From Sipunculus nudus (taxonomy: Eukaryota; Annelida; Sipuncula; Golfingiida; Sipunculidae), in assembly GCA_026874595.1 (NCBI GenBank), contig CM049308.1, positions 50,268,124 through 50,332,123 on the forward strand: a stretch of DNA of 64,000 nt. The letters run 5' to 3'. A model generated the notes under the pieces. It was not told where the DNA came from. It made no database searches and was given only the letters and a program-made list of their open reading frames with translations. A program made the position numbers and the translations under genes. This document shows, in pieces, positions 28,193 through 64,000 of the stretch (within the stretch, counting starts at the first letter, position 1; each line of letters opens with the position of its first letter).

Positions 28193-28220
28193 ATGGCTGC
28201 TAATATGTATCGAGTCGGAG
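28193..28220 (+). CDS. MTA1: MTA exon 1
   Basis: ATG begins MAANMYRVG plus one base of a split Asp codon; the donor is GGAG|GTATGT. The protein start equals that of vertebrate MTA proteins. An open frame continues past the donor but loses all similarity there. Confidence 0.95.
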
Positions 28221-43200: not shown

Positions 43201-46200
43201 AAACTAGTGGCCAGCCAGTGTGCAGTGTATATGAAGGCCATTGATTTTATTGTTCAAATAGGGGAGGGGGATGGTGATAGCAGGTTTCTGTGTGTTAATG
43301 ATTTCAGTATGAGTGCTGGTTTCAGATAGGCCAGGAGGTTCCAGAGGTTCTGTGGAACTGACTGGTAGTCTGTGTGTGAGCTGGGCAGTGGGCCTCCAAG
43401 GGGGATCGTTGTTTGAATGTATGTGTCACTCACATTATTGGACAAATAATATTGCTGTGTTGCTGTGATCATATTCAGTATTGATCTTGTGACGGTGCCA
43501 GTCTTAAGACCATCTGTGTTGACTTCAGCTTAAAACAAACTCTGTAGCTCACTAGTAGACCCAACAGTACCTCTTAACAGATCCATACCTAAGATTGAAG
43601 AATGCATGTGTATGTATGTACTTTGCACCATGTTACTGATGATGTAATTTCCTGGTGGTGATTATCTGATGGGTTTATCAAGTGAAGGTACATGTCTTGT
43701 CATGTGTAACCATTAAAAAAAGTGATCCTGTTACTTTAACACTGGAACCCCCGCTCCTGCCACCCACACTTCAGTTTATTACTGGTACAATATTTCGATC
43801 ATTTTGACAATCTGTTGAAAAATGAACACTATAAACATTCTCTGAATCATTTTTAGCTCAGCTGACTATAAGTCATCTGAGCTATAGTCGTGGTCCATTG
43901 TCCGTCGTCCGTCTATCCATCCGTCCGTCCGTAGATGTGGCACGTTTTGAAACCGTAAGACCTAGGAATCCAAAATTTGGCATAATGTTAGATGTCCCCA
44001 AGATCTCCTACCAAGCCGAAAACTGGGTCTTTGCGACTTTGTTCCTTTGAGAAATTAAGGAAAAACCTCAATTTTTTATTAAAAACCCATTTTCACACTT
44101 CTGGACTGCCTAATATCAAAACCACTCATCTGTTTTTCCTCATATTTACCATAAATAATCCTCTATATAGTTCCTATGTACATGCCAGAAATTGGGTCTG
44201 TATTATATAATTTAAAAAAGTTATGGGCCCAAACATAATGCATTTTGTAAATAATCAGGAAAAAAATTTGATCACTTAACACAAAACTTGTTAAAGATAA
44301 GCACTTTTTTCCAGTAATATAACTTTTATTAATCAAAATTAAATTTTATACCCAAAATTTGACCAAAATCTTTTAAATTTTTTAAAATATTAGCAAAAAA
44401 TAAAAAATTGCTACCTTAAACTTTGCCCAACTTTGACCATGGCACGTTTTTTTCCTGTAACTGCTGTGGATTTAATTTTCAAAGCATGTTTTTATTAGCA
44501 TTTCAACTGTTTACATTTAAAATTTGAAACCAGTTGATCAAAAACTGTAGATTTTATTCAAGTTCTCAAGCACCATGTCACATATTGTTTACATCAACCT
44601 AGTGTTATGCAGTTTGCTAGAGCTCAGCTCCCCAGCTTCAGCTCTAAGTTCATTAAATTAGGCATACAGTAAGATGTCTCCAAAATCCCCTACCATGCCA
44701 AGAATTTGGTCACCAGAACTTAATTCCTTCGAGATATTAATGAAAAACTTCATTTTTCATTAAAAACCCTTTGTTACACCTCAGGACTGCCTAGTATCAA
44801 AACCACTGATCTGACTTTGATCATATATATAATATACATATTTTTCTATACATTCGCAATGCACATGCCAGAAATGATGTCAGTATTGCGTAATTGTTTT
44901 AAGTTATGGGCCCAAACAAAATTGACTTTGTAAAAAATCAGGAAAAATATTTACTCAGGTTACATGAAAATTATTGAAGCTAGAGAATTTTTTTTTTCAA
45001 GTATATAACTTTGTTTAATTAAGATTCAATTGTATACCCAAAATTAGATCTGTATTTTGTAAATTTTATAAGTTATTAGCATAAACATAAAATCAGTACC
45101 TGAAATTTAACCCTACTTTGACCATGGCTCATTTTTTTCCTGTGAGTACTGTTGATTTAATTTTCTCAGAATGTAAACATAAGTATTAAATGTGTTTAAA
45201 TCTGAAATTTGAAACTAAAAGGTTTAAAATTAGGCTAGTTATTGAATTTTATCTTGAGGCTCTATTGTAGTCACTTGCTTTGTTCCAGATGCAGGTAAGC
45301 CACTCCAGGTCACTGGAAGTCAGCTATGCCAGAGTTCCTGATTTGTTTCAGTCACTGGGGGAGATCCCCTGCTGTGACAGGTGTACAATTGTTCTCATAT
45401 CACTCCCCCTTCCCCCCATGAATATATAAATATACATTTGTATGCATGATGTGGTGTTACATGACAAGATTGAGATTTATGATGATGCAATTTAGAATTA
45501 TGAATCAACGTTTATATTCAGAAATATATGTTAATATTGGAAATGTATACAAATTAAACTTAAAATAAAAAAATGAGGATCTAATACAAACATGTGTTCA
45601 TTATTTTCGAGCCTCAGCAGAATTGGAGATCAGGCTTTGTTTGCCCTGAATGTTTATGCAAAAGTGTTGTTAATCCCATCTCTTCCTCCCCCCCCCCCCC
45701 CCCCCCCCCCCCCCCGGCTGACATTGATCCTTAGCATCTCACCGTCACCTGTGCACTGGGACATTAGTTATTATTGCAAATGTGTACAATTTTTTTCAAT
45801 TTGAAAGATAATTGGATTAGAAAAGATTAAGATCTAATATTGAAACATATTCTTGCCCCAGGAGAATGGAACATAAAGTGATCAGCTCTGTCTGTCCATC
45901 ATCTCTCAATTATCATTAAAATATATACTAATTATGAAATCTTTCCTTTAAGCACTGTTGAAATAACTGTCATATGCTGTATGTGTATGGATTTAAGCCA
46001 TTAAAGTCTGAAATTTGAAAGCAACTTATGTATTCAGATGTGTAATATTGCAGATGAAAAACTTTAAAATATTAAAATATATTATCAGCTTTGTTTGTCT
46101 AACAGTCTGTCTATCCTTTTTTAAATATTATGTAATTGTGAATGAACTATTTAATCCTGTAAGTATTGTTGAATTAAGTGGAAATCCTATATGTATATAC

Positions 46201-49200
46201 ACTATGTTAATACAGAGATGTTGTAACATTCCAGCCCTCCCCCCCCCCCCCCCCCCCAACCACCACCACCAGGTCCTTGCATCTGGGGACTGGAGACATC
46301 AGTTATATTTTCAACTGTATACATTTTATAAAATAAAAATACATATATTTAATAATATATATTATGTAAAATAGATCCAATTGAGCAAATGTGTAAACTA
46401 CTGAACTGTCAACAAATTATCAAAAAGCCAGCCAATGATCATGGTAATAATATACATCTTATGTTCACAAACTGCTCACATGCTTCAATTTTGACATTAG
46501 AGAATGCATGGTTTGGTCACAAAATATTATTTGCAACAATTTCTCACTCATCAATACAAACCAATCATGTCAACCAGCCATGGCGTATATTACCTTTTCC
46601 TCTTAGACTTGATCTCCATTATTATTTTAGATTTTTACCTTCAGGGTCAGCTGAGCACAGTGACCCATATTTATAGAACCATGTCTTGAATGTTTACATC
46701 AAGTCATTGGTTAACAGTGTTCCAGGCTGTTACATATCACCTTCACTCCTTGCCTACTGCTGCTGTGAGTGTCTGGGTCAGGCTGGGTCAGGCAGTAATT
46801 ACCAGAGAGCCTTTCTCCTCGCTCTCTTTCCCTTTCTCTCTTTCTAGCTCTCTTTCTCTCTCTCTCTTTCTCTCTCTCTCACCCCTATGCCTCCCTTCCT
46901 CCCTCCACCCCATTCTGTTGACAGGTACTATAAACCTAATTTATTAGATATATATGTTGATGCAATTAAGAAATGTGAATCAACTGAAACATTCACATAT
47001 ATGTGTTATACTCTAAATGTATAGTTACATTTTCAAACCTGGAAAAAAATGATGTTATGAAAAAAGGAATTTATGTAAAAATTGTTCATCATTTCCTGGC
47101 TCAGAAGAATGGGAATTAAAATTATTTGCTTTGTTTCTCTAGCTTTCTTGCCTGTTCTATATATTTAATAATTATGAATAAACTTTTTTTTCCTGTAAGC
47201 TCTGATTAATTAAATTTCATATCCTGTAGGTAAATGCAAGGGTATTGTTACTCCCACCATCCCCTTCCCCCACCCCACTAAGTCCTTGCTCCTTCGCACT
47301 GTCAACAATAGTGCTATAGCTATAGCATAAAATTTAATAATTTGAAGAAAATATATACAAAGAGACAGAGGCGTTGTAACTCCCATCATAACCCCCCCCC
47401 CCTCCATCAAGTCCTTCTGCCTGTGGAGTTGAGACTTTATAGCAACTGTATACATATCATAAAATAGAAAAAAAAGTTTAATTAAAGTTTAAATTTAAAA
47501 AAATTGGATCTCATTAGACAAATGTGTAAAATGTTGAACTGTCAACAGCCTGACAAAAAGGTATCCAATGAAAACGCAAGGTCAGATCTTAAAATATTAT
47601 TTGCAACAATTTCTTCAATCATATCAACCAACCATAGCCTAGATTACCTCTTTCTCTCAGACTTTATCTACATTTCATAATATTTTAGATTTTAACCTTC
47701 CAGGTGTTTAAGTACTGTTGAATGCTCCGTCCCTCTCTCTCTATCTCCTTTTCTCTCTACATCCAACCCTCCTTGCTGCCCACACTGTTTCCTTCCCTGA
47801 ACCCCATCCCAATGTCAGCCTCAGTAAACGAGAACAAGTTGAATCAGATATATTCATATTTTTATATATTGTATAACTGTTTGTTACCTATGTACGTGCC
47901 AGAAATTATGTCAATATTGTGTAATATATATAATGTACCAATATAATGTACCTGGTCAAGACCTAAGAGATATCATGTCATACAGTCACAATTCATAAAT
48001 CCACTCTTCAGCATAGTTAATAATAACATTATATATGTCAAATTGAAATCTTGCGGACTTCCATACACTATAGATCCTTCAACAAATAGCCTTATCATCA
48101 TTCTACCACTGCTTAGTGTACTGTCATTGCATTCATATTTGCTCAAATATATCGCTATTTTCAAAAGCTCCCAAAAAAATAAAAAATAAACCACTACATT
48201 TACTCCATATTAATCCATCAGTCAGGTAATTTCATACATGATTTACTCACATATTACATTATATTCCTTTATAATAGCCTAATAGGTCCATGATATTCAT
48301 AAGGTTTGTCGACTAAATATAGTATCACAATGGTGATACATTTATAGTTCAATCATGATCAGCTGAGCGCCGTGACCCATAGGTTCCTTGTTGTTTTCAA
48401 GTAATCTGAAAAAAAAATATTTTGTATATTTACTGTCTTAGTCATATACTGACATAGGTAAATTCCATCCTTAGGTTAAAAAAGTGCAAGTTTTGATTGT
48501 GCAGCACCTGTGTATCAGATAACACTGTTCATTTTAAATGTGTCTCATATGTACACTAAACAACAAACCGTCCCATCATGAGCCGGTTCAGCTTCACTGG
48601 TATCGTGAATGACTGTCATAATGCTTGTCTTCTTAATGTATAAGTAAGTGATAAAGTGCAGAGTTGTAAAAGAAAAATATTTTTTTATTGTTTTCTGTAT
48701 GGTGATACTAGGAACTAATCCCATGGATTTATCAAATCTTAACATGCATACTTGGATGTGGGTTCTATATGAGGTAATCATACATGACCTTCAAATCCTA
48801 TCAATCCAGGTGAACGTTTGCATATTTTGGATTGTAGGAAGGCATGAGATAATTGTGGTTAGCTCTGGAGGTTTTGGTGTCACTGTATGTTTATGTGGCT
48901 ATGGTTATTATGTGATGGAAATCATGATGAGAAGACACTAGACACTCATTTGTTTTTCATGTACCTAACAAATATGTAGTTGGATTGCATCACATGAACT
49001 CAGTAGACTGCAGTTATGTGTATTAGGGCTATGTATGTAATTTCATCTTTTTAAGCACGGCTGACTTAGTCTTCTCAGCTATGTGATGGTGCTTTGTCCA
49101 TTGTCTGTGTAGCCATATAAACATCTGGACATTAACAAGGGACAGATTGTATCAGTCACAATCCAGTTAGTGTTCAAAATTGAGGAATAAAATTTTCAAA

Positions 49201-52200
49201 CTGAATGATAAATTGGAAAGTTGAAATAATGTGCCTAATCCAAGCATATGAGATTGTTCTGAGCATTGAAATATTGAAGAGTACCAGCCCAGCCAGCTGT
49301 TTTAAGATGTAACCACTAACGACCAGTTGTAACATTTTAATCTCTGCATGGTTTATAAGTTAGTGTGGCCAACTATCTATTAATTTTGTTTTTGCCCCTT
49401 CAGAAATTTTTAGAGAGAGCAAATGATCACCCACAAATATTGCTGGTCCAGGTTATGTCTAGAACTATTGCCAATGATAAGCCAACATGAACTTGTTAAA
49501 AACTGAAAATATATTAATTAGGTTGTCGCCATTAGTAGCCTTTACTAAATTACTATTCCATTCTACACATAAAAATTGTCACTTTAAGATAGATATTAGG
49601 TCAAGAGGTCACAGGTCTGGGCAGCTGAGCCTTTGGTCACTTTTCAGGAACCGGTAAGATTTCCACAATTTATGTCTTGATTGATTAGTACATATTTATG
49701 TTTTGTTAACTTAATACATATTGATGTCTTGATAATTAATTTAATACATGTGCTACCCTTTTATATCCTATTTACCTAATCATATTGGTTATAATAAATA
49801 TTTCCTTATTGAAACTTTCCTGTGCATATCTCTGATGTCCTGTCTGTGATGTAATGTATCATTCTATCACACAAGCCATATTTCAGGTTCTATTTCCCCT
49901 GTTGTAAAATTAGGGTTTCCTGACACTTCCTGTGTTGAAAATTTATGAAAGCTGCAGTTATACATTTACCTTTGACCTATGTCAAAAGAAGGTTTGTAAC
50001 ATTGGTGTGATTAGTTTGTATTCACGTGGGACTTAGTTTTTCAAAGTACAATTAACTCCTGCCCAAGTACCAGAAACTAAACTTGTATAGTGGGAATAAA
50101 CAAGTGAAATGAAGCAGATAGGGATCTGGTAACCAATGACCTAGATAGCTGTTAATGATGTATGGGGCCAGAGAAAAAGGCATTGTGTGAGTGAGCTTGT
50201 GTACACCGTGGCTGCAGACAGGTGACAGTTGGTTATCACTCAGTGTGTGACGCTACATGTCAGAGTAATTATAGGTACTGGCATCAGTGTACACCATTCC
50301 TTTGTTAATGTTATCATTTAGAGGTTCTACCTCCCATTGTTATGTTCCATGAATTGTACTTTGGTGTTATTGTAGGGGAAATCCTTGAAATATGTATAAA
50401 AAAAATAAGTGTATCAATATTTGAACAGACAAGCAGCGGCCATGTTATATCTATCCATCTGTTTGCTTGTATGTGATTCAGCTCTGAAGAAATTGTGTAG
50501 ATCTAAATTTACTGATGAAAATCTGTATATAATTGTCTTTGTAATTGAATACTGCTTGTCATCAGGTTAATTTCTTTGAGACCTGTATTCAAGATGTCCA
50601 ACCTTTAATGATCAGAGGGCACTGTTGATCTGAAATAATAGGAAGTGTCAGGTATCATCTGCATTAATTGATTAGTATTGCACATTGAATCAAATTAAAA
50701 AAAAACACTGGTGGAGGTACTATGAGACACAGTAGTACACAGCGCATATATTCAGAAAACCTACCTTATTTACTTAATAAAGACAGTGAGGATTTTAAAA
50801 AAATTCAGTTTACCTAAATGTTGATAGATAGTATATCTGATATCATGCTTGTTTTGAATACTATCTGGGGTTTTTGTGTTTTCACATATAATGATAAAAA
50901 ATAATTAGATGAGCATTACTCTTTGTTTCTTTCAACACAGCACATTCTTCAAAGTGTTGTTTATTTAGTTAGTCAAATAGACTTCTTGCCAAAGAATATT
51001 CAAGTATTAACTTTTTTATCCAGATTTATCAAAATATTTATTTAGATATTTCATATCTAAGACATGCAGCATGTAATTTATTATGTCATTCCTGATGTTC
51101 TGGGGTTTCACTCTCTACCACATGCTAAACACTATTGTGAAAATTGATGAATATGGGTAATCACAGTAAGAACCCTCAGAACAGTTTTGTGATTGTTGGA
51201 AGGTAGAATCTTACAGGATTTTAATTAATTGAAGGATTTGAATTTAAAGGAACCCATAAGCCCAATGAAAAAAAATAACTTTCCAAGAAAATAGACCTGG
51301 TGTTTCATCCTTTCCATTAAAAAAAAAACATTTTCAGTATTTTAAAATTTGTTCCTCGATGTTATTGATTTCTTTGTACCCTTCAAATTTCTTTAATAGG
51401 CAGGGCTATTTGGAACATGGTCACTAAACTCTCATACATTGGAGGGACAAAATGGTTCAAAAATAGATGAGAAGCAGAGGAAGCAGTGAAGGGCAATTTT
51501 TATACTTGTCAGTCTGGGACATCAGCTTCTATTTTTAACATCCAGACCTCTCACATTGATTGACAGTTAGTTTTCATTAAGGGTCATTAAGGGTGAAAAA
51601 CGTTTTTTCCAACTACACATCTTTGATGTTTGTAAACCTGTTTCTTTTCAGTATAAATATCATAAATTTGAAACAGCCACAAATATAAAACCATCATTGT
51701 GTCAAATCATTTGCTAAAGTGTACAAAGACACTTACATGACTACATTTATTAACATAAAATGCATACATCATACATCTCATTTAGATGCTGACATTCTTC
51801 TTGCAGCCACACATTCCAGTACACCTTTCATAACTTCCATATTAAAATAAGGAGTCAGACTGCCTGGTTTCCTGTTCTTGAAGCCAGCTTTACAATAATG
51901 CTGAATGTTAACATTTTTGTGCCACATGACTGGCCTTCGTTTACCAATATTGTCTTGCTGCAGGTTGGGGCATTAATTAGAAGCTTGTTCATTTATTTAA
52001 TGAGAAGCTTATTATCTTCATGCCTGGATATGCTTTCCAGTTGAGAGATAACAAATTTCCCTGTTAGTAGACAATTAAATTTGCAGACAGATATTACATT
52101 GATGAATATGCTGGTAACCATGGTAACATGACTGGGTGTAACAGGACCATCAACTCTGTCTGCTGGTGGTTGTAATTTATAACAGCCAGGCATTGAATGA

Positions 52201-52677
52201 GATACCCAATGGTTAAATTTGATTAAACAAATAGCTAGTTTATTTGTCTTCTACACATTGACCTAGCACAAACTGCCTACTGGGCAGCCACGATACAGCA
52301 CAGAATATGATCAGAACTGATTGAAAAAAAAAGACACAAATCAAATCTGGTCTGGGAGAATTAGGAGCATAAAATAGATAGCCATATTTGCATAATGTAA
52401 ATTTCAGTGGTTTTAAATTAGGCAAGATCATGCAAGATTGTCACAGTTGCTTGACTGGTGCCGTGCACATTATCATGTGTCACACATGTATTTATTATAT
52501 AAATATGACATATGCATATTCAGTTGGTTCTGATGTAAGTTAACCAGGTGATATGAATATTTATATAAAGAAGCATACAGCCACAGTTGCTTTGTAAGCT
52601 TGAGGGCCTTATGTGATCCTCTAATGTAATCAGATGCCATGAATATTCATATAAGGCAAGTGTGTGTGTGTGTATGT

Positions 52678-52724
<47 letters not shown>

Positions 52725-55700
52725 CATATATAATCTCACTTGCAGTCTGTTGGTCAGGGCTTTTAAGTATCTGTATATGATACAGAATTAACTTGACCAT
52801 TGTTAGGTTAAGGAGCATTACCTAATCAGATGTTCTGATTGTAATTGTGTTAAACAGGGTTGTAAGATATGCTGTAGGTTAAGCATATGCCAGAACATAT
52901 AAACTGACAAACAATGGCTGTTGACAGTCCACTTTGTTGAAATATTTTTATTTTGTCATGATTCAGTGAGTTACTGAATTAATATTATCTTTTTTCCCCG
53001 CTTCTGAAGGAAGGGGAGACATTGATTTGGGTAGGTCTGTCTGTCTGTCTGTCACTTGTGCTTCTTTTTCCAAATATTCTCCCTAAATATTATCTGATAT
53101 CATTCGAATTTTATACCATGGTCCCTTTAGGAGTAACTTTTATTGAATCACTTATTTTCTGCCAGCTAAATGATCTTTAATACTTTTACCCAGAAAAGTA
53201 AGAAAATGTGTTTATATTTAGAATTTATTCAATGGCTAAGTATTTCTTCGAGCAAGTGAAATAAGATGGTATGAATTATTAAAAAATGATGTTTTCATCA
53301 CACTCTAAATTGATGGTGCAAAATAGGTTTTTGCATGTTAACTTTATAAGATAATATTGTTTACCTATTATCAAAGGAGCATCTGTAGCTGTCAACACCA
53401 ACCTTTACTGCCACACTATTCTTGTGTGTGATTTAAAGAGGCAGGTGGCACCACCTGTGTTGATATTTCTGTGAGCCAAAATAGGACTGCCACTGACAAA
53501 AACCAAGCAAAGTATGTAAATTCCATGAATTTGCTGTAAACCTTTTTATATAGATACATAACATGTACTAAAACATGGCAGTCTGGCCAGAAAATGTATT
53601 ATACATATTGCCTTTTGGTCAATAGTTCTTGTAAAATGTAATAATTTTATTACCCCATGGCAGTGAACATATGTCAGTCCACCAGATAAAATAATAACAC
53701 ATTATTAGTCCCCTGCCTCAGAAATAAGACTACTAAAATGGTTCATGTCTTTTAGTCCATCTGTCCATCCCAACACATTCTTTTACCAGATACCTCTAAA
53801 ACCTCTGCTGCTTTCTTCATCAAATTGTCCAGATATTCACCTCACTGGACTGACATATGATGATAAGGTGGCACCACCTCTGTTGAACCACTTTCTGAAA
53901 TCTAAAATGATCTTTTCCACTCTCCTACTGAAAAAGTCAGTTAAATAGGAGTACTTTTGCCCTCATACACAAGGATTCAAGGAGCTGGGGGAATTAAACA
54001 AATACAGTATTGAATGGAATTATTTTCTAAATGATTTTTCAACAGGACATTGAATTTAGCAGATCACAAAATTTTATAATTTCACATCTTTGCTTATATG
54101 GTGCAAAATCATTTACCTTTTATCTCAGGTACAATAGCACAAAATTTGACAGACATTGGTAATGTGATTGCTGCGTGATTTTTCCCTGTAGATGGCGCTG
54201 TCTGTATTGGCATACTATTGGGGGGGGGGGGGGGGGGGGGGGGTTTATTTCTGCTTATTCCTGAATTAGTCCAAAAAATAATTTAATTTTGCCTTTCCTG
54301 TTATGGTCAATTGTATCTTAGAACAAGGGCTTCAAAATTGCTTTTTCAAGTAAATGTTGCTAATCACAGCATTTTATGATTTCAGCTGTCTGCATACATT
54401 AAAGTTAAATCTAGTACGAAATATCCCAGCAACAGCAGGACAGAACCACCTATTTTTTATAATAGTTGAAATGGTATTTTCATTTTCACTGTTTGAAGTC
54501 AGGTTTTCCTTGTTTCCTTATGATCAGGACTTTTATTGCATGCACTAACCATGGATGGCTCGAGATAAATAACTGCCAACTAACTGCTAATGGTGTGTGC
54601 CCAGTCAGTCCATGTGGTACATGATTGTATCATTCTGTCCAGCGTGGATATAACCGCAGCAAGTGTCTGCAGGTAATTGATCTATATCTACTGTACTTCT
54701 TTGTTGTCAGGTGCCTTGGAAGAGGACCAAGAATTGGGCACCGATGAAGATCTAACAGAGAAACAGCGACACCAGCTAAAACACCGTGAACTCTTCCTCT
54801 CCCGCCAGGTGGAGACACTCCCTGCTACACACATACGCGGAAAGTGCTGCGTCACTCTGCTCAACGAAACCGAATCCTTCCTCTCGTATCTCAACAAAGA
54901 GGTCAGTTATCAGTATTAGAGTTAAAGAATATAAGTTTTGAAGGGGGCATTCTTTTTGGACTCAAAATTAAAGGGGGGAAAGAATATTACTTTTTCCTGA
55001 GAGACATTTTTGTGTTACTGTACATAATCATAACTCCCATTTTGTATGTTCTGTGCTGCCAGTGATATTGTCTGATTGCCTTTCAAAGAGTATTAGATCA
55101 ATTAGTGTCATGTTTGTGCTCTAGGTGGCAGGACTGACTATATTTCAGGTTAGTGTTCTTAGTATCAGGTAGGTGGCAGCACCTGCTTGACTACAGCTTT
55201 CTCTTCAGGAAAACCAGGTGCCATCTGTCAGTCAGTATTTTGAATTTTTGTTTTGTTTATGAACACATACAGTTAGAATATGTTACAGCTTCAACAGAAC
55301 TGACAACATAGTATCACTTGAGCATAACATACATGTACAAATACAAAGTGACTGCTTTGGAAAAAAAACATGGTTAATGTTGTGAGATAAGTTGGCCAAC
55401 AATTCATGTGATCACCTGAAAGATCCTGTCTGCATCAGAATATAATCATATTCAACCAGTTAATGGACATCTTTCCAGTCCCCAAGATCTAAAAATGATT
55501 CAGCATGACTTGCTGAGCTGTTAACAGTGAAAGGAAAATTTAAGAACGTGCTTGAATGATGATGATAGAACACAGACCTGTACTGAATCTTGTTGAAGAA
55601 ATGTTCTCTGACAAGCACTTCACTATCCAAATATGTAGCAGAGTATGTTAGAATGTTTATCAGTTACATTTGAGGATTCAGTAACCAGGGTCCTGGCCTG

Positions 55701-58700
55701 GATTTACAGCTCAGATGACTTTTGTCATCTGAGCTGTAGACATCACTCCTTGTCCGGCGTCCGTCTGTGTCTGTCCTTTAACCCTGCACAAATCATCACA
55801 ACTGGACCTGGAATCTTCTAACTTGACATCCAGAGAGGTCCATTAAAAATCTCCTGGACACCTCAAATTAGGTCTCTGTCGCCCATATCCCCCAAGCTAT
55901 AGGACTCAGAAGTAACCCCCCCCCCCCCCCCCAAAAAAAAAAAAAATTAAAAATTTGATACAAAAGCTTCAGAATTTAAACAACTATGCATCAACCACCA
56001 TGATTATTTGCATGCATTTTCATCACGGAATGTTCCATCAGTTCCTGCAGACTGGTGGTGCCACCTGGCTTTTCTAATTTTTACATATTTTTTCTCTATT
56101 TTTGAGACCTTTAAAGATGCGGTCATCTGTTAACAGGGCACAATTCATAACCATTGGACCTGGAATCTTCTAACTTGACATCTAGGGAAGTCCATGAAAA
56201 ATTTCCTTTGAAACCTGAAATTAGGTCTCTGTTACCCATATCCTCTGAGCTATGCTTCAGTTTAATTGGGATACCATTTACAAAATTTGGCATTCAGATG
56301 ATAAAATTCCTTTTGTGAAGGTCTTCCTACTGAGCTGGGCATCATGACCCCTGGGTCACTTGTTTCACAGTGTAACGACAGTTAAGAAAAGTATGTCCAG
56401 GGGAGGTCAGGGGGATGTAGCCCCCATGAAGCTTGAGCTCATTCAGCATGCCCAAATACAACAAAGTGCTATCTAAGACAATAGAATTTCGTAGTTAAAA
56501 CAGTACTTTGTATTTTAAATACTCTTGTAAGTGGTAAAATATTTTGATTTTTCTGGAATACTTCTTCCACAAAAATTTGATAATTTTGGCCTAATTCCCT
56601 CATCCTTCAGGGCCATTGTTCTCCTGCTAACTCAACAATGTTTATTTTAAAATTTTTACTTTCCCTTGTCTTTAATTTACTCAATTATCAGATGTCTTAC
56701 ATTGTCTGAAAGGATAAAATGAAAGGTGTCGAGCTCCCTTTATAATTTTGATCCGTAGATAAATAGTGGCAGGTGATTTTAATCATGGACGTTTCTGATA
56801 AAACTGTGACATTTTTGTGCATGCACATTTAATGGAATGCAAGTATTTTATATGTGCTTGAAACTTTCTATATTCATTTGCAAAAAGCTTTTGTAACATC
56901 AAGCAATATTACTTTGCAAGACGATATGAAATACATGTAAGTTTTATTATAAAGTCATTTCTGCAGTCTTGGACAATTTGGTAATGATACATGGGTGCCC
57001 ACTGCTGTTTATCGTTCTCATTTTGTGAGAAATTGATTGTATTAGCATAAAACTACATGTCACATGATTGGTGGAAAGACCCCCTTCCGAGAACCAATCA
57101 GTGACTCATTGTTTACTACATGCCTGTGGGTTGTTTCATTCATGGTATTTTTTGGCAGGAAATAGTCCGTGCACAATAGTTCTGAGCAGTGTCTACAAAT
57201 GTGATATCACAAGCAGACAATCGGCGATGATCTGTTGACTTTCGAGATGGCATGTTTTCAGGAGTCAAGGAACCTGAATCCTCATTAATGCAGGGGTAAC
57301 ATACAGAAGATTTTACCATCAACAAGCCTGTCAAAACAATCAAGAGCTCCTAGGATTTGTGCGGGATTCAAACTAAGACTGTTGACACTGTCTTCATCAG
57401 AAACATGGTCATAAATTTGCTGCTTATAAAAAATCAGCATAGTGGCCCTAATTACAGCGTAATTTGAAAACATACAAAGAAATTACCTGGTGAGGACCCT
57501 GAATAACTTGAGTTGGGGGGGTAGTGGGGTTGGTTGTATTAGTAATTGCAACAGTGCACTTGAGACCTGTAGACATTTGGACTGGCTTTTAAATCAGTCC
57601 AGTGAAACCTAAGTTTGACATCTGAAGTGTTTACACAATATCTGACTGATATATTTCCACTTTTGAAATTGCTTGCAAGCTTTAAGTATATGTTGTGAGG
57701 CTAATCCTTCCTTTGAATTTATGTCATGAACCTTGGCTTTTGTTTTTGTTGATTGTTCAACAGGGTCGGGACAAGTGAGATATTGCACCACTTGTGTATA
57801 AGTACTAGCTAGATACATGAATTCAAGTACATGGGTATGAGTATAAATACGTATGGGTGGTACTCAGAACAAGTACAGAGTTGTTTATTTCAAGAAAAGT
57901 ACATAACATATACATATATTCTTTCCAGTTCCTTTCTTTATTCATGTTTTGTACATTTATACCACATTACACACTATATTTAATATTTATTTATTACAGT
58001 GAAACCCCTCTATAGTGAACGGTCATGGGACTGATTGTTTTGTCCATTATAGCAGGGTGTCTGCCCAAGAGAGATCAGGCCAGGTGGTCTTGTTGGGGCA
58101 AGATGTAGGCAAGGGACTTTGATTTGGGTTTTGTGTCCCATTGGAAATTTGTTGATTGATTTGGGACTTTTGTCCCATGGGTAACTTGATTGATTTGGGT
58201 CTTGTGTTCCATGGGTAACCTGTTGATTGATTTGGGTCTTGTGTTCCATGGGTAACCTGTTGATTGATTTGGGTCTTGTGTTCCATGGGTAACCTGTTGA
58301 TTGATTTGGGTCTTGTGTTCCATGGGTAACCTGTTGATTGATTTGGGTCTTGTGTTCCATGGGTAACCTGTTGATTGATTTGGGTCTTGTGTTCCATGGG
58401 TAACCTGTTGGTTGATTTGGGTCTTATGTTCCATGGCTAACTTGTTGATTGATTTTGGTCTTGTGTTCCATGGGTAACCTGTTGATTGATTTGGGTCTTG
58501 TGTTCCATGGGTAACCTGTTGATTGATTTGGGTCTTGTGTTGTTGACTACAGGATGCCTTCTTCTACTCGCTGGTGTATGACCCTTCACAGAAGACACTG
58601 CTGGCAGACAAGGGAGAAATCAGAGTGGGCAGTCGTTACCAGGCTGAAATACAGCCACTTCTCAAAGAAGGTAAGTCGTTACTGGGGTGAAATGCAGCCA

Positions 58701-61700
58701 CTTCTCAAAGAATGCCACTTGCAAAGTATGTCAACTGTATCTTACTCCAGAGCACAAAGAAGCAAAATAAATTTGAAAAGGAAGTTTTATGGTTATGTAT
58801 AGCATTATCTCAAACAAAGATGTTTATGAATCCTGCCTGACATACCTTTAAAGCAAGTAATGAAGAAAATAAGAACAACGTGGACGCTTACAAATGTAAT
58901 CAAACATGTCTGTAGAAACTAACATCAAAAGAAACATGAGAAACCCAGTGCTTGTGTGATGAAAATACACAGACCTGTACTGAACAACAGGAAAGAAAAA
59001 CCATGTCTGACAAGCACCTAATTTTCCTGCGGATCACTCTTGTAAAAGAGGAACCTCCTGGTATATAATGTTGCATAGATTTGGTAAATTATAGTGTACA
59101 TTCTAGTGTTTATTTCACAGTGTTCATTTCAAAGTTGACCAGTGATGTTATTTTTATTTTGCAGGAGAGACAGATGGCAGAAAAATTGAAGAACTGGAAG
59201 AACTTATATGGGATCCGGTTAATAACCTAAATGACCGACAGATTGACCAGTTTATGGTGGTAGCAAGGTAAGTCTTCTGGTGCTACTAGTGGCAGAACGT
59301 AAGAAACAAAAGGGAAACATGTTTTTTACAGCTGGTGCAAGCTACAATAGGAGTTTGCTGCCCCCTACCCCCTCCCTTTAAAACTTAATTGGCATCATCA
59401 TTTATTTCAGATAAACTCAGTGGCTCACAGCTAAGGGAATGCTGAAGGCAAAATGCAGTGTTAGAAAGCTTCCATGAAAAAGGATGACTTCTGCATTAAT
59501 CTGAAAGTTTGACACTGACACTGACAGATATGTAGTAGTTCTGTTGTTGCTAGCATGTAACTCTCCTCTAAAAGTTGGGTAAACCTTAAACAAAGCAAAG
59601 GGTTGCTCTATATTGCATAAAAAGGATTAACAGGGATCAGATTTCTTGTAATTAGTTCATAGGTGAAAGAAAACACCATATTCTTATGACTTTTGTAATA
59701 TTCCAATACTCCATGCCTGTGGCAACATGGTCCCCTTCATAAACTTTGTATGACCTTTCAAATATATTCAGATCATGAGTGACATTTTACAAGGTAACTA
59801 TAGCATGTTATAAATAGATGGATCCTTTAACTCATTTTAAATGCCACTAGATGTCTTATAGAATTGCATCCATAAATTTATCCTGTGTAAATAAATCCCA
59901 TAGGGTCACATTTAATACAGGTATTACACCTTTATTGTTATGTACATACATCTTTTCATTGGCTAAAAGTTGTTGAGCAGCCATTGAGTTTCTTTTGCCA
60001 AGCAGCATAAAAAAATGCCAGTCACTTCTGGTCAGTCCTGCTTGGTGTGAGCATTCTCTGGCATGACCAGTAAATTAATTTTTCCCTATTTGAAATGGAC
60101 AGGGCTCATGAAAGAATTATATTAATTATAAAAGTGCAGCTTTGTTATTGATAAATGATAAGCAAAATACCAAAACTTTCATGTGTGCATGAATGATGAT
60201 AAAACACAGACCTGTACTGATAAAACAAGAGGAAAAAACATTATCTGATTTGCACACATAAGTACATTATTTTTAAATCCCTGAATGGGACTTATTCATT
60301 CAAAACATACTTTCTGTATGATACAAGTCCTAATTTTTTCTTGAATTATATATATATATATATATATTTATATATTTATAATATATAATTTGATCATCTG
60401 TTTAATCATGATTTTATAAATAATGAGTCCTGTTATCTCGTGGACATTTCCCCTTCACGGTGGCCATCTTGTGGTTTGTGTGTTTTAGGTCTGTTGGGAC
60501 ATTTGCCCGTGCATTAGACTGCACTAGCACAGTTAGACAGCCCAGTCTACATATGAGTGCTGCAGCAGCATCAAGAGATGTTACACTGGTAAGTACAGCT
60601 TTGTCAGCTGCAGTTATCCCTGGCATCTCTATAACTGTGAGATACAGAGGACATATAAGTGATATGCCGGGCAATATATACCATGGTATAACACTGGACT
60701 GAGATGACATTCAGTATATTTCAGTAAAAGTTAATATATGATCCGTGTATGCTGGTATAGTATAAATCAAGTATTTATTTTTTGCATATTTAAATCTGAG
60801 TAATAATATGAATAACCTTGTGCATGGTATGTTTCAAAACACTCCATACCATGTTCACCACTCTGAACTTGTTAATGTTGTCACTTTTGACGAATGAATC
60901 TAAGGGTAGCCTGCTTCACTTAAGCAGGAGTTTAAGCACATTTATTATATCCCCAGACAAAGTCGGGATACTATGGTTTCACGACATTCCCGCCGCCGCC
61001 GCAGAAAAACCTTGTGAGCGGGATAACTAAAAAAATACTTCACTGATCTTTTTCAAACTTTACATTTGTATAGATATAGGTAAAGGGACGTAGCCTATTT
61101 AAAATGGGGTCATGACCTATGCTAGGAGAGTGACCTTGACCTCGAATAGGTCCATTTTTGCTGAAAATAACACAAATTCTTAAATATCTCAAGTAAGCTT
61201 GCATGGACTGGTCCAAAAATCAAGGTGACCAAAGATCTTGGATAGCCTTGTGGTATACCGGAAACTGGTGGCGCCACCTATTATCCTTTCCTTGCTTTTA
61301 ATACCCCCATAATTGCCACTTGACAGTACTGTAAGCATTATAAGTCAAAAACTAACGGACAGATTTCTTTCATATTATGCACATGTAGTGAGATGGGTTA
61401 TGGGATGAGGTCTATTTACATTTGGGTCATGACCTTTACCATGAGAGTGGCCTTGACCTTTAATGTGTCTAAAGTTGGTGAAAATCATGCACCTCTTATG
61501 ATATCTCCAGTGTTGATAGCCATATGGATTTCAAACGTGACTTATGTATGGCTAACCACTAAAGTAAGAACCCTATAGGTTCTAGGGTCATGAGGTCAAA
61601 GGTCAAGGTCACTGGACTAGCATCTTAAAAGATACTGTGGATGCATTTCAAGCCAAACTTTCATCCCAGATCTTTCATCTTGAATATATAGCTCTCTTGC

Positions 61701-64000
61701 CAATAGTGGATGATCCATATCAATTTTGGGGTCACAAGGTCAAAGGTCAAGGCCACAGGAGCTATCTGTCAAAAAATTAGTTTCTGGATGATAATTCCTG
61801 CTTTTATTGATGTATTGATTTCAAACTTGACTTATATATGTCCCATTGGAAAAGCAAGACCCAAATTGATTTTGGGGTCATGAGGTCCAAGGTCAAGGTC
61901 ACAGGTCACATCTTTAAACAGGTGTGGATGCATTTTCAGCCAAACATTTCATCTCATATCTTTCATCTTGCACATCACCTGCCAAGAGTGGAAGACCCCT
62001 ATCAATTTTGAGGTCACAAGGTCAAAGGTGAAGGTCACAGGAGCCATCTGTCCAAAAATTAGTTCCAGAGATGATAATTCAAGCTTGGATTAATATATCA
62101 ATTTCAAACCTGACTTATATATGGCCCATCAATAAATCTATTGATTTATATATAAAAGTGGATGATCAATATCAATTTTGGGGTCACAAGGTCAAAGGTC
62201 AAGGCCACAGGAGCCATCTGTCAAAAAATTAGTTTCTGGATATTAATTCCTGCTTTTATTGATGTACCAAGTGTCAGTATAGGCTGCTAAAAATGGGGGC
62301 CTATTCTTAAAGGGGGGGCCGTACTATGTCTGGGGATACTCTGGCACCGCAGTTTAACATGCAATCAGCATAGATTACAGAAAAAAATACAACGACAGAC
62401 CTGAGATTTTACAGTGAAATTCATATAACTGGTATGATGAGATTTACTGGTAAACCTGTAAAAAAAACCAGTGAAACTGGTATTTTGATATCCCAGACAA
62501 TAAAAACCCATGAAATATGAAATCCTAGCATTCCATATAATAATGGTATATGACCACACTCTAGATACAATCTACATATTTCTTATAAGCAAAAGTTGAT
62601 GTAGGCCTAGTGTGACCTTTATTTATGGAATGGATTAAAAGTAGCTTCTTCTCGTATTTGAGCAGTGACTGGGAACACGTGTCACAGTTTGTAGAAAGTC
62701 TATGTTTGTATGATGAAATTACACAGACCTGTACTGATCCACAGGGAGGAAACCCTATATATCTGATGAGCATAGACACCAGCATAGCATCAACTGTGAC
62801 ACATGCCAGTCATTTAATGAATTTATGTACCAGCAAAAGTACAAATTAAACCAAAATTTGATAATTAAACTAAAACATTTTATAATTGAAGTATGTTTTG
62901 TTTTTATTAGCTCTTACATAGAGACAGTGTTATATGTAAGCCACAGGGTGAACATAACACAAGTGCAACTAAAGTGGAATCTGGTCCTTTGCATTGATTT
63001 TGTAAGGTTATATCAAATGTTTTCTTTATTTCTTTTTAGTTCCATGCAATGGACACCCTCCACAATCACAAATACAATTCGTCCAAAGCCATTTCCAGTC
63101 TAGTGCCTCCCGGTGGCCCAGTGTTATGTCGAGACGAAATGGAGGAATGGTCAGCATCTGAAGCCAACTTGTTTGAGGAAGCTCTTGACAAATATGGCAA
63201 AGACTTCAATGACATCAGACAGGACTTTGTGAGTAGTGAAAAATTGTGTATTTTTTGTACTTAGTGGTAACTTTAAGAAGAACATGAAAGAATTTAATTC
63301 AGAGGTTGATTCATGTGAATTTTTTCCCCGGTTGATTCTTTCTTTTTAGTGTGAGGGAGGGATAAATAACTAATCAACTCCAGGTTAAAGGGTGATCTTC
63401 ATATATATGCCATTTGTTTGGATTCTGTGGGTATTTTACAGGTAAAGCAGGATCAGTAGTAGTAGTCCTAACATCATTATGATGGTAAACTGATTTTAAA
63501 ATAAGATGATGTATGAAAATATCAGTGCAGAAAGAATACCTGCTTGCATGATGACATCACACAGACCTGTACTGAATATGTAGGAGGAAACTTTTTGTCT
63601 GACAAGCAGTTAGAGACCTGTGTCACCAGACACAGGCAGTCTTAACATATTTTATGTAGACATAGGGACAGATGTTATGAGATTGTTATAGATCTTTAGG
63701 TTATATTTCCAAATTTGTGAAAGGTCGACCTGTTCTAGAGACAAAATTTGGTATGATAACTCTCTGCTGAGGGTTTTACCTTTAAAGTTCTTGATCTGAG
63801 GAAGTCTGTTCTGCCTGATACACTGATCACATCTAATGGACAAATCATTCACATGTGTATTCAAGTCAAGCTGGAATATCTGTATACCTGTAGTCCTGTA
63901 AATTTTCTTTAAGATACTCTCTGTCTGTTTCAGTTACCATGGAAGTCGTTAAAAAGTGTGGTAGAGTATTATTACATGTGGAAGACCACAGACAGATACG
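28193..64000 (+). CDS. MTA1: MTA-family NuRD subunit (MTA1/2/3 orthologue), 5' part, nine exons
   Basis: A nuclear scaffold subunit of the NuRD nucleosome-remodelling and deacetylase complex. In the family, ELM2-SANT binds and activates HDAC1/2. Exons 28193-28220, 28687-28754, 28923-29016, 54711-54901, 58553-58670, 59165-59267, 60489-60588, 63040-63228 and 63934-64000 join in frame to 319 residues plus one base. Order: BAH domain (about 1-147), ELM2 (about 148-262), then SANT (from about 269). The start MAANMYRVG equals the vertebrate N-terminus. The gene continues right (GATA zinc finger and C-terminal part not seen). The acidic BAH-loop linker ([20 protein letters not shown]) is shorter than in vertebrate MTA1. 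Introns 4-8 each host a C/D snoRNA. Invertebrates usually have one MTA gene, so MTA1 is used as a family symbol. Confidence 0.96.
28687..28754 (+). CDS. MTA1: MTA exon 2 (BAH domain)
   Basis: The acceptor is TTCTTGCAG. Translation is (D)[19 protein letters not shown], then LNK, ending AAG|GTATTG. It is the core of the BAH domain. Confidence 0.96.
28923..29016 (+). CDS. MTA1: MTA exon 3 (BAH domain)
   Basis: The acceptor is ATATTGCAG. Translation is [20 protein letters not shown], then [11 protein letters not shown] and one base before GTGAGT. The RRRDIS stretch is diagnostic of MTA. The single leftover base pairs in phase with exon 4, 25.7 kb away. Confidence 0.96.
29017..32901 (+). other. 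MTA intron 3, first part: no element recognised
   Basis: About 3.9 kb of AT-rich intron without the hairpin elements that crowd later parts. Only scattered short T-runs; no coding or RNA gene is supported. Confidence 0.6.
32902..34954 (-). mobile_element. Decayed hAT DNA transposon
   Basis: The termini CAGGGTTGG (32902-32910) and CCAACCCTG (34946-34954) are perfect 9-bp inverted repeats of hAT type. The flanks AGTTACAT and ACTTACAC agree at 6 of 8 positions, a possible aged 8-bp target duplication. Subterminal regions repeat TGGCTAAAAC-like motifs on both ends, as hAT elements often do. The interior encodes a hAT C-terminal dimerisation segment on the - strand. The rest of the transposase is not recognisable. 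Confidence 0.8.
34273..34512 (-). pseudogene. hAT transposase C-terminal (dimerisation) fragment
   Basis: On the - strand the frame reads ...[12 protein letters not shown], then [29 protein letters not shown]. This is the SSxxxERxFSxxGLxxxKxRNRxxxxK pattern of the hATC dimerisation domain. The open frame extends upstream of the first ATG (34456-34458) to about 34512, where TTTTGTAATCAG could be an old acceptor. Only a C-terminal portion is left, so it is treated as a relic, not a working or clearly domesticated gene. Confidence 0.8.
34955..36162 (+). other. MTA intron 3 spacer
   Basis: AT-rich intron sequence with no recognisable gene or element. Confidence 0.6.
36163..36767 (+). mobile_element. 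Family-3 inverted-repeat element, about 605 bp
   Basis: It opens TATCCCCAGACA and closes TGTCTGGGGATA (36735-36746), a perfect 12-bp inverted repeat, followed by the hairpin GGCACCTGCGGTGCC (36751-36765). A longer relative is at 60948-62352. The interior shares blocks such as GGTCATGACCT. Non-coding. Confidence 0.85.
36913..39395 (+). mobile_element. Family-2 element split by family-1 sequence
   Basis: The head TAGACGCCCGTC starts near 36914. Matching tail blocks (AGGTCAGAGGTCA at 39197-39209, then GGGTGTATTATGCACC) end near 39395. Between about 37030 and 38406 lies family-1 body with two tails (CAGCTGAG at 37950 and 38373, each ending TTGTTT). The order shows family 1 nested inside an older family-2 copy. 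Confidence 0.6.
39398..40387 (+). mobile_element. Family-4 element with two internal tandem blocks
   Basis: The head is TATCGGCCAAAACAG, then GCGGATACTATG; the end is GGGCGGATACACATAG, then CACTTGTT. The interior has two tandem blocks of about 265 bp (roughly 39595-39860 and 39865-40140), each with ATCCAAGCTCATATCTC and GGTGGCGCCACC. Perfect palindromes stand at 39814-39825, 39963-39974 and 40092-40103. Non-coding. Confidence 0.7.
40487..43854 (+). repeat. Degraded family-1-like fragments and intron spacer
   Basis: A decayed head (AGTTCAGCCATAAAG, then CACCTGAGCTATAGT) starts near 40490, followed by family-1 body to about 40890 and further related blocks to about 41300, with a C-run near 41146. 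AGGTCAAGGTCA occurs near 41710. From about 42200 to 43854 nothing is recognised. Confidence 0.45.
43855..48392 (+). mobile_element. Composite family-1 element, about 4.5 kb
   Basis: The head AGCTCAGCTGACT starts at 43855 after TTTT. Near-identical head and body blocks match 7316 onward. A decayed tail occurs at about 46648 and a final good tail (AGCTGAGCGC, GACCCATAGGTTC, CTTGTT) at 48392. It contains a C28 run (45688-45715) and others near 46240 and 47391. Proline-rich or serine-rich reading frames here are artefacts of C-runs and TCTC tracts. Confidence 0.65.
49050..49660 (+). repeat. Decayed family-1-like head fragment
   Basis: A head-like CACGGCTGACTTAGTC is followed by a CTCAGCTATGTGATGG stretch and GTGCTTTGTCCATTGTC, as in other heads. 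No tail was found. Confidence 0.4.
49661..54219 (+). other. MTA intron 3, last part
   Basis: Mostly unrecognised AT-rich intron. It contains a GT/TA microsatellite (about 52661-52723) and two GGTGGCACCACCT near-palindromes (53446 and 53870). No gene is seen. Confidence 0.55.
52661..52723 (+). repeat. (GT)n/(TA)n microsatellite
   Basis: GTGTGTGTGTGT followed by long TA alternation. The antisense frame rich in IYIY comes from this repeat. Confidence 0.95.
54220..54243 (+). repeat. G24 homopolymer
   Basis: Twenty-four consecutive G about 470 bp before MTA exon 4. A G20 run also lies in a CCT4 intron at 1475-1494. Lengths may be affected by sequencing. Confidence 0.9.
54711..54901 (+). CDS. MTA1: MTA exon 4 (end of BAH domain)
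   Basis: The acceptor is TTGTTGTCAG. The first two bases complete Ser with exon 3, then [54 protein letters not shown]. It ends [18 protein letters not shown] and PATHIRGKC are MTA signatures. The acidic linker is short; a cassette exon inside intron 3 could exist but none was seen. Confidence 0.96.
55548..55618 (+). ncRNA. C/D-box snoRNA copy 1 (SNORD127-like, MTA intron 4)
   Basis: Terminal stem GTGCTTG/CAAGCAC; C box ATGATGA (55556-55562), D' box CTGA (55583-55586), D box CTGA (55608-55611). The guide before D' contains CACAGACCTGT, complementary over 11 nt to 18S rRNA ACAGGTCTGTG. By the D+5 rule it targets the first G of AGG, human 18S G1447, the SNORD127 site as remembered. It lies about 650 bp downstream of exon 4; a transposon and a minisatellite later filled the rest of the intron. 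Confidence 0.93.
55708..56364 (+). mobile_element. Compact family-1-related element, about 657 bp
   Basis: The head is a hairpin, AGCTCAGATGAC and GTCATCTGAGCT, at 55708. The tail is CTGAGCTGGGC, then GACCCCTGGGTC and ACTTGTTT near 56364. It contains C and A runs at about 55917 and two similar internal halves (each with TGGACCTGGAATCTTCTAAC). Non-coding. Confidence 0.75.
56365..58117 (+). other. MTA intron 4 spacer
   Basis: AT-rich intron. Antisense reading frames near 57140-57820 show no recognisable protein features. Confidence 0.55.
58118..58541 (+). repeat. 37-bp minisatellite abutting the exon 5 acceptor
   Basis: About 12 tandem units of 37 bp (GGTAACCTGTTGATTGATTT, then GGGTCTTGTGTTCCAT). 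The first two are diverged; the central ones are nearly identical. The last unit breaks off at GGTCTTGTGT, directly followed by TGTTGACTACAG and exon 5. The branch-point and pyrimidine-tract region is therefore made of repeat sequence. Since 37 is not a multiple of three, antisense frames show a shifting pseudo-periodic peptide; it is not a gene. Confidence 0.97.
58553..58670 (+). CDS. MTA1: MTA exon 5 (BAH to ELM2)
   Basis: The acceptor is GACTACAG. Translation is [20 protein letters not shown], then [13 protein letters not shown] and PLLKE plus one base, GTAAGT. GEIRVG.RYQA is the conserved start of ELM2 in MTA proteins. The bases just after the donor partly repeat the exon (GTCGTTAC, CAGCCACTTCTCAAAGAA), a small direct duplication. 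Confidence 0.97.
58948..59017 (+). ncRNA. C/D-box snoRNA copy 2 (SNORD127-like, MTA intron 5)
   Basis: Terminal stem GTGCTTG/CAAGCAC; C box GTGATGA (58956-58962), D' CTGA (58980-58983), D CTGA (59007-59010). It has the same ACACAGACCTGTACTGA block as the other four copies. The D box is about 155 bp upstream of exon 6. Confidence 0.93.
59165..59267 (+). CDS. MTA1: MTA exon 6 (ELM2)
   Basis: The acceptor is TTTTGCAG. The first two bases complete Gly, then [20 protein letters not shown] and [13 protein letters not shown], two bases of Arg and GTAAGT. ELM2 domain. Confidence 0.97.
60181..60259 (+). ncRNA. C/D-box snoRNA copy 3 (SNORD127-like, MTA intron 6)
   Basis: Terminal stem ATGTGTGCA/TGCACACAT, 9 perfect pairs of a sequence different from copies 1 and 2. 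C box ATGATGA (60193-60199), D' CTGA (60217-60220), D CTGA (60245-60248). Same 18S guide before D'. It ends 230 bp before exon 7. Confidence 0.92.
60489..60588 (+). CDS. MTA1: MTA exon 7 (ELM2)
   Basis: The acceptor is GTTTTAG. The first base completes Arg, then [20 protein letters not shown] and [13 protein letters not shown] before GTAAGT. Strongly conserved ELM2 segment. Confidence 0.97.
60948..62352 (+). mobile_element. Family-3 element, about 1.4 kb, with AGGTCA repeats
   Basis: It opens TATCCCCAGACA (60948) and closes TGTCTGGGGATA (62327-62338), then TCTGGCACCGC. The inverted ends match those at 36163. The interior has four or five diverged modules of about 140-150 bp, each with AGGTCAAAGGTCAAGG and a TCTGTC..AAAATTAGTTTC stretch (about 61590-62240). 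A GGTGGCGCCACC stands at 61267-61278. It is larger than the other copy because of the extra modules. Confidence 0.85.
61593..61611 (+). promoter_or_regulatory. AGGTCA direct repeats (DR1 plus adjacent half-site)
   Basis: Three AGGTCA half-sites in 19 bp: 61593-61598, 61600-61605 (one-base spacer, DR1) and 61606-61611. Similar DR1 pairs occur at 61737-61749 and near 61882, 62016 and 62190. DR1 is the known site type for HNF4, COUP-TF and RXR partners; function here is inferred. Confidence 0.4.
62698..62777 (+). ncRNA. C/D-box snoRNA copy 4 (SNORD127-like, MTA intron 7)
   Basis: Terminal stem GTCTATG/CATAGAC, again a different but fully paired stem. C box ATGATGA (62710-62716), D' CTGA (62734-62737), D CTGA (62763-62766). 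Same guide block. It ends about 260 bp before exon 8. Confidence 0.92.
63040..63228 (+). CDS. MTA1: MTA exon 8 (ELM2 end, SANT start)
   Basis: The acceptor is TCTTTTTAG. Translation is [63 protein letters not shown], then GTGAGT. It holds the HDAC-contacting linker and the first SANT helices. Confidence 0.97.
63540..63609 (+). ncRNA. C/D-box snoRNA copy 5 (SNORD127-like, MTA intron 8)
   Basis: Terminal stem CTGCTTG/CAAGCAG: compared with copies 1 and 2 both strands of one pair changed together (G-C to C-G). C box ATGATGA (63548-63554), D' CTGA (63572-63575), D CTGA (63599-63602). Same guide block. It ends 324 bp before exon 9. Confidence 0.93.
63934..64000 (+). CDS. MTA1: MTA exon 9 (SANT), cut by the window edge
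   Basis: The acceptor is CTGTTTCAG. Translation is [20 protein letters not shown], then RY and one base. This is the last SANT helix; the exon or gene continues beyond the window. Confidence 0.95.

Follow-up and report, generated by a model that had tools for sequence, protein, structure and literature searches.

Intron-encoded C/D snoRNAs are released through splicing, debranching and trimming, and fibrillarin methylates the residue paired to the fifth nucleotide before box D or D'. Of the human C/D families with several members, 59.5% are reported to keep every expressed member within a single host gene. In chicken, the paralogs described are attributed almost entirely to within-gene duplication; the novel ones lie in neighbouring introns, and guide and structure are conserved whereas the remaining sequence is variable (PMC2653536). 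The human chromatin remodeller CHD8 is listed as host of both SNORD8 and SNORD9, which are directed to U6-A53 (PMC6466398), and old snoRNAs are described as relocating between broadly expressed hosts (PMC3511168). For human U25 (SNORD25), 18S-G1490 is listed as the target and SNHG1 as the host (PMC6466398). Yeast snR56 is given as serving 18S Gm1428 (PMC5199042), and entries in two tables equate the snR56 site with human U25 and plant snoR19, one of them giving Gm1490 (PMC8817022; PMC2780460).

In the window, which is the whole stretch of Sipunculus nudus DNA analysed (64,000 nucleotides), five elements are located in consecutive introns of an MTA gene. Judged by their sequence, they are very probably intron-encoded U25/snR56/snoR19-type C/D snoRNAs, paralogs within MTA that would direct methylation to the 18S counterpart of human G1490, and the most likely mode of their spread within MTA is cis-duplication. 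The features are as follows, where L007-L009 are the next 30 kb beyond the window:

28193..64000, + strand, MTA host gene from start codon to window end, continuing to about L009:9369 beyond the window
54711-54901, MTA exon E4 (splice-junction exon model)
55548..55618, + strand, U25-type C/D snoRNA copy 1, in MTA intron 4 (54902-58552)
58553-58670, MTA exon E5 (splice-junction exon model)
58948..59017, + strand, U25-type C/D snoRNA copy 2, in MTA intron 5 (58671-59164)
59165-59267, MTA exon E6 (splice-junction exon model)
60181..60259, + strand, U25-type C/D snoRNA copy 3, in MTA intron 6 (59268-60488)
60489-60588, MTA exon E7 (splice-junction exon model)
62698..62777, + strand, U25-type C/D snoRNA copy 4, in MTA intron 7 (60589-63039)
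63040-63228, MTA exon E8 (splice-junction exon model)
63540..63609, + strand, U25-type C/D snoRNA copy 5, in MTA intron 8 (63229-63933)
63934-64008, MTA exon E9 (splice-junction exon model)
L009:8371-8445 (C3:50360494-50360568), outside the window, sixth U25-type copy, diverged, in the last coding intron of MTA

Human U25, to which these elements are likened by published site, is also an intron-encoded box C/D guide for the snR56-equivalent site; its host is SNHG1, whereas the host here, MTA, is a protein gene that carries five intact copies and a sixth that has diverged. Yeast snR56 (RF01188) has in its Rfam consensus a guide and D' identical to those found here, and its sequence outside the boxes and guide differs. 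Human SNORD58 (RPL17), SNORD12 and SNORD53/92, together with the chicken paralogs, are reported as further cases of one guide repeated across introns of one gene; these three human families have other guides and hosts and are credited with three expressed members each, against five to six copies here. SNORD8 and SNORD9 in CHD8 are similar in having a chromatin-remodelling host and one site, and differ, as listed, in using two guides and an snRNA target. With one-host families in human, within-gene paralogs in chicken and two guides in CHD8 on record, the sequence-only reading of this DNA was mistaken in treating the arrangement as without precedent; it is ordinary in kind, and within-gene copying is common. 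The literature searched gave no report in which MTA is a host or in which a single gene carries U25 in five introns, although such a report may exist.

The MTA exons were searched for with the human MTA1 protein as the bait, and 12 exons, the last three of them in L007, were joined to give a product of 408 aa. BAH, ELM2, Myb/SANT and GATA domains were found in this order by domain search, and the product matched human MTA1 (7ao8_D) with an E-value of 6.3e-210. By both its domain order and its similarity to MTA1, the host gene is MTA.

Several repeats were also observed along the gene. A tandem array with a 37-bp unit and 11.5 copies (58119-58541) is present in MTA intron 4 directly before exon 5, a 43-bp direct duplication (58631-58712; 1.9 copies, 89% match) extends from the end of exon 5 and the donor site into intron 5, and a 282-bp unit in 1.9 copies (61585-62129) is present in intron 7. 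A palindrome near AGGTGGCGCCACCT recurs at 11940, 19110, 26600, 36874, 39685, 39813, 39962, 40091, 53443, 53866, 55171, 56053 and 61266; the pattern AGGTGGCNNCACCT, allowed up to 2 mismatches, gave 32 strand matches where 2.63 were expected, and flanks shared by eye were seen for the site pairs 11940/19110, 36874/56053, 39813/40091 and 39685/39962 and not for the others. Upstream of MTA, an open frame (5210-5536) is, by eye, a candidate CCT4 chaperonin-subunit-like fragment.

Each snoRNA copy is 70-80 nt long and is composed of a stem, a C box (RTGATGA), the guide, a D' box (CTGA), a D box (CTGA) and the second strand of the stem, and a C box RUGAUGA and a D box CUGA by the terminal stem are intact in all five window copies. 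The 17-mer ACACAGACCTGTACTGA, covering the guide and D', is exact at 55570, 58967, 60204, 62721 and 63559, all on the + strand. At up to 3 mismatches, one extra match was found in the window (16943, minus strand, 3 mismatches), and 100 shuffles gave a mean of 0.16 and a maximum of 1 match at this tolerance. Thus, the box C/D character of the elements, seen in boxes, guide and stems, their presence one per intron in MTA introns 4-8, on which the 17-mer matches and the exon model agree, and the identity of the guide and D' block in all five were reproduced as first proposed, and the terminal stems quoted at that time (GTGCTTG/CAAGCAC, GTCTATG/CATAGAC and CTGCTTG/CAAGCAG among them) were found in the sequence. 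Copy 1 has two overlapping C boxes, at 55556 or 55559; the first fits the common stem register with a spacing of 10 nt from C box to guide core, versus 7 nt in the other copies, while the second has the 7 nt spacing but is located outside the common stem register.

Conservation is concentrated in the guide, and the drift of the remainder that had been described was also observed. When the five window copies were compared in all 10 pairings, identity was 170/170 in guide and D', 106/110 in the C and D boxes, and 230/413 (56%) in the remaining snoRNA. The segment before box D varies among the copies, which makes a shared second guide unlikely. With all six copies aligned to the boxes in a single register, 41 of the 42 cells in the inner 7 stem pairs were standard pairs, and pairing was 19-57% when the register was slid. 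The covariation claimed for the terminal stems is present and is modest, with only 2 of 7 pairs changed on both sides, a count reached by 33 of 500 shuffles; the covariation score was matched by 5 of 500 shuffles, and both values are supportive only, since the stem structure was derived from the same sequences as were scored. The folding-energy z-scores of copies 1-6 were -0.31, -3.30, -2.96, -3.35, -1.19 and 0.01, strong in three of the six.

The series in introns 4-8 stands as first reported, but it does not end with the window, as a sixth copy was found within the 30 kb that follow, in the intron that separates the two final coding exons of MTA. Its guide block is ACGCAGACCTGTTCTGA. Of its two changes, one converts an A-U pair with 18S to G-U and the second falls outside the 18S duplex, so that pairing is retained at 11 of 11 guide nucleotides. 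The stem is retained with G-U pairs, but the C box is altered to ATGATTA, and this copy is probably weak or decaying.

The copy number was then considered over the species' own assembly (1.4265 Gb, 153 contigs). A model, R1, was built from the six MTA copies, whose scores of 79.9-88.7 bits follow by construction; it gave no additional copy in the window and the next 30 kb, and over 113,901 bases nothing except the six copies scored above 15.1 bits. The exact 17-mer occurs six times genome-wide, in the five window copies and once on contig C4, where the match was taken as chance, with no C box in the sequence around it and an R1 score of 15.1 bits, compared with 79.9-88.7 for the MTA copies. 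A pattern of TGAT plus guide core gave 13 rows in the genome, of which nine were registers of the six MTA copies (reversed-pattern control, 0 matches), and a G-U-tolerant pattern gave nine rows, six of them the MTA copies (reversed-pattern control, 1 match). The other rows were rejected: those of the TGAT pattern (L012, L022, L023 and L024) scored at most 18.7 bits with R1, L012 giving no match, and those of the G-U-tolerant pattern (L025, L026 and L027) at most 24.8 bits, L025 giving none. L027 (C14:63838117-63838144 of the same genome, G000) has a C box and the near-guide CACAGGCCTGTACTGA, but neither a CTGA in the box D position nor a paired stem; its 24.8 bits correspond to an E-value of 5.9e-05 when 9 kb of loci preselected by the same pattern were searched, and it may be a chance match or a relic copy. 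No further convincing copy outside MTA was found by the pattern searches of the 1.43-Gb assembly, and within the limits of such searches and of the stretches they covered MTA is the only host seen. A U14 16-mer, intended as a baseline for multi-copy snoRNAs, had 0 matches in the genome.

Comparison of the 400-nt flanks between copies by blastn gave only chance-level matches outside the snoRNA (E 0.16-0.56), apart from the match of copies 4 and 5, whose flanks physically overlap. This lack of flank similarity suggests old or small-scale duplications and not fresh whole-intron copies. The dissimilar flanks, as well as the damaged C box of the sixth copy, would also fit a mobile repeat of snoRNA origin that landed in MTA by chance and is now present as dead relics, an explanation we consider very unlikely, since the pattern searches place the copies in one gene of 1.43 Gb, all on the sense strand, and guide and boxes are preserved while the remainder is at 56% identity. 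The location in consecutive introns of a single gene could also point to a main role in cis on MTA splicing or transcript stability, with the rRNA guide as a by-product. This is even less probable, because the best-conserved part is the 18S guide and D', which a cis role does not need, and because the distance from snoRNA to 3' splice site ranges from 147 to 2934 nt among the copies.

The reading as U25-type guides for 18S depends on the target and the family. In each of the six copies, the guide forms a duplex over 11 of 11 nt with the 18S stretch ACAGGTCTGTG, positioned one nt upstream of D' and with one G-U pair in the sixth copy, which reproduces the 11-nt pairing reported previously; this stretch is a presumed conserved 18S sequence and not the species' own. 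Counted on the 3' end of human 18S, the residue selected by the D+5 rule is presumably G1490. Three conserved patterns for the species' own 18S had 0 matches each in the assembly, from which rDNA may be missing or collapsed, and the target therefore rests on the presumed conserved sequence.

In Rfam, no gathering-level match was obtained for the window copies. In a permissive search, all five matched snR56 (RF01188) at 31.5-36.3 bits (E 0.037-0.27; cut-off 54), and the consensus of this family has the identical guide and D' block ACACAGACCUGUaCUGA. All five also matched DdR1 at 24.5-33.5 bits, below threshold, and SNORD100, SNORD101, snoR38 and other C/D families gave similarly weak E-values. 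The SNORD25 model (RF00054) had no match over its cut-off in the species' own genome, and the MTA copies were not listed in this search, in which 67 of 152,896 candidates were scored. Six sub-threshold SNORD25 matches in the genome were set aside as noise, as none contained an R1 match and 12 of 14 prokaryote controls matched as well. On L007-L009 and L011, four Rfam matches were obtained (E 0.38-0.69), far below the cut-offs, one of them being the sixth copy to DdR1. A score over the Rfam cut-off was thus reached with neither RF01188 nor RF00054, and the block identical to that of snR56, the published site and the count on the human 18S end all point to yeast G1428, human G1490, as the equivalent of the selected residue.

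Least likely of all is the family and target first named, SNORD127 orthologs guiding methylation of the 18S G1447 equivalent, with which the RNA class and the rRNA agree and for which nothing specific was found, since published site tables, in the entries concerned, refute it by giving Gm1447 as the target of SNORD127 (PMC11084827, PMC5597630) and Gm1490 as that of U25, the selected residue counts to the G1490 equivalent, 43 nt away from G1447, and the guide block is that of snR56, with U25/SNORD25 as the human counterpart. G1447 is reported to be located in ES9S of h39 (PMC10164566). SNORD127 was not among the 30 permissive Rfam matches, a result that counts only if Rfam includes SNORD127.

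For U25-type snoRNAs encoded in MTA, we infer the following order of events. The MTA pre-mRNA would be transcribed and spliced and its introns debranched, and each intron would be trimmed to a core protected by 15.5K/Snu13, Nop56, Nop58 and fibrillarin, so that one MTA transcript could give five snoRNAs, with one U25-type snoRNP per intron. The D'-linked guide would then form an 11-bp duplex with 18S ACAGGTCTGTG, in which the residue corresponding to human G1490 (yeast G1428) would be methylated at its 2'-OH by fibrillarin. The copies have drifted everywhere except in the boxes, in the guide and D', and in the ability of the terminal stem to pair.

In human HCT116 p53+/+ cells, methylation is reported as 0.16 at G1447 and 0.94 at G1490 (PMC5597630); as G1490 is highly methylated in human, a story in which many copies rescue a poorly methylated site would be wrong. 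It is also unlikely, on present sequence evidence, that MTA is the sole source of the U25-type guide, with the copy number raised to five and the 18S mark tied to the expression of a NuRD subunit; if this were true, one 18S methylation would be tuned through MTA, by alternative splicing or by retention of its introns. The U25 site is described as common to yeast, plants, Dictyostelium and human (PMC8817022), and the MTA copies give the U25-type guide a host that is protein-coding and chromatin-related, together with a series of copies within one gene. With the guide fixed in five copies and the rest at 56% identity, they are a compact natural experiment on what is essential in a C/D snoRNA.
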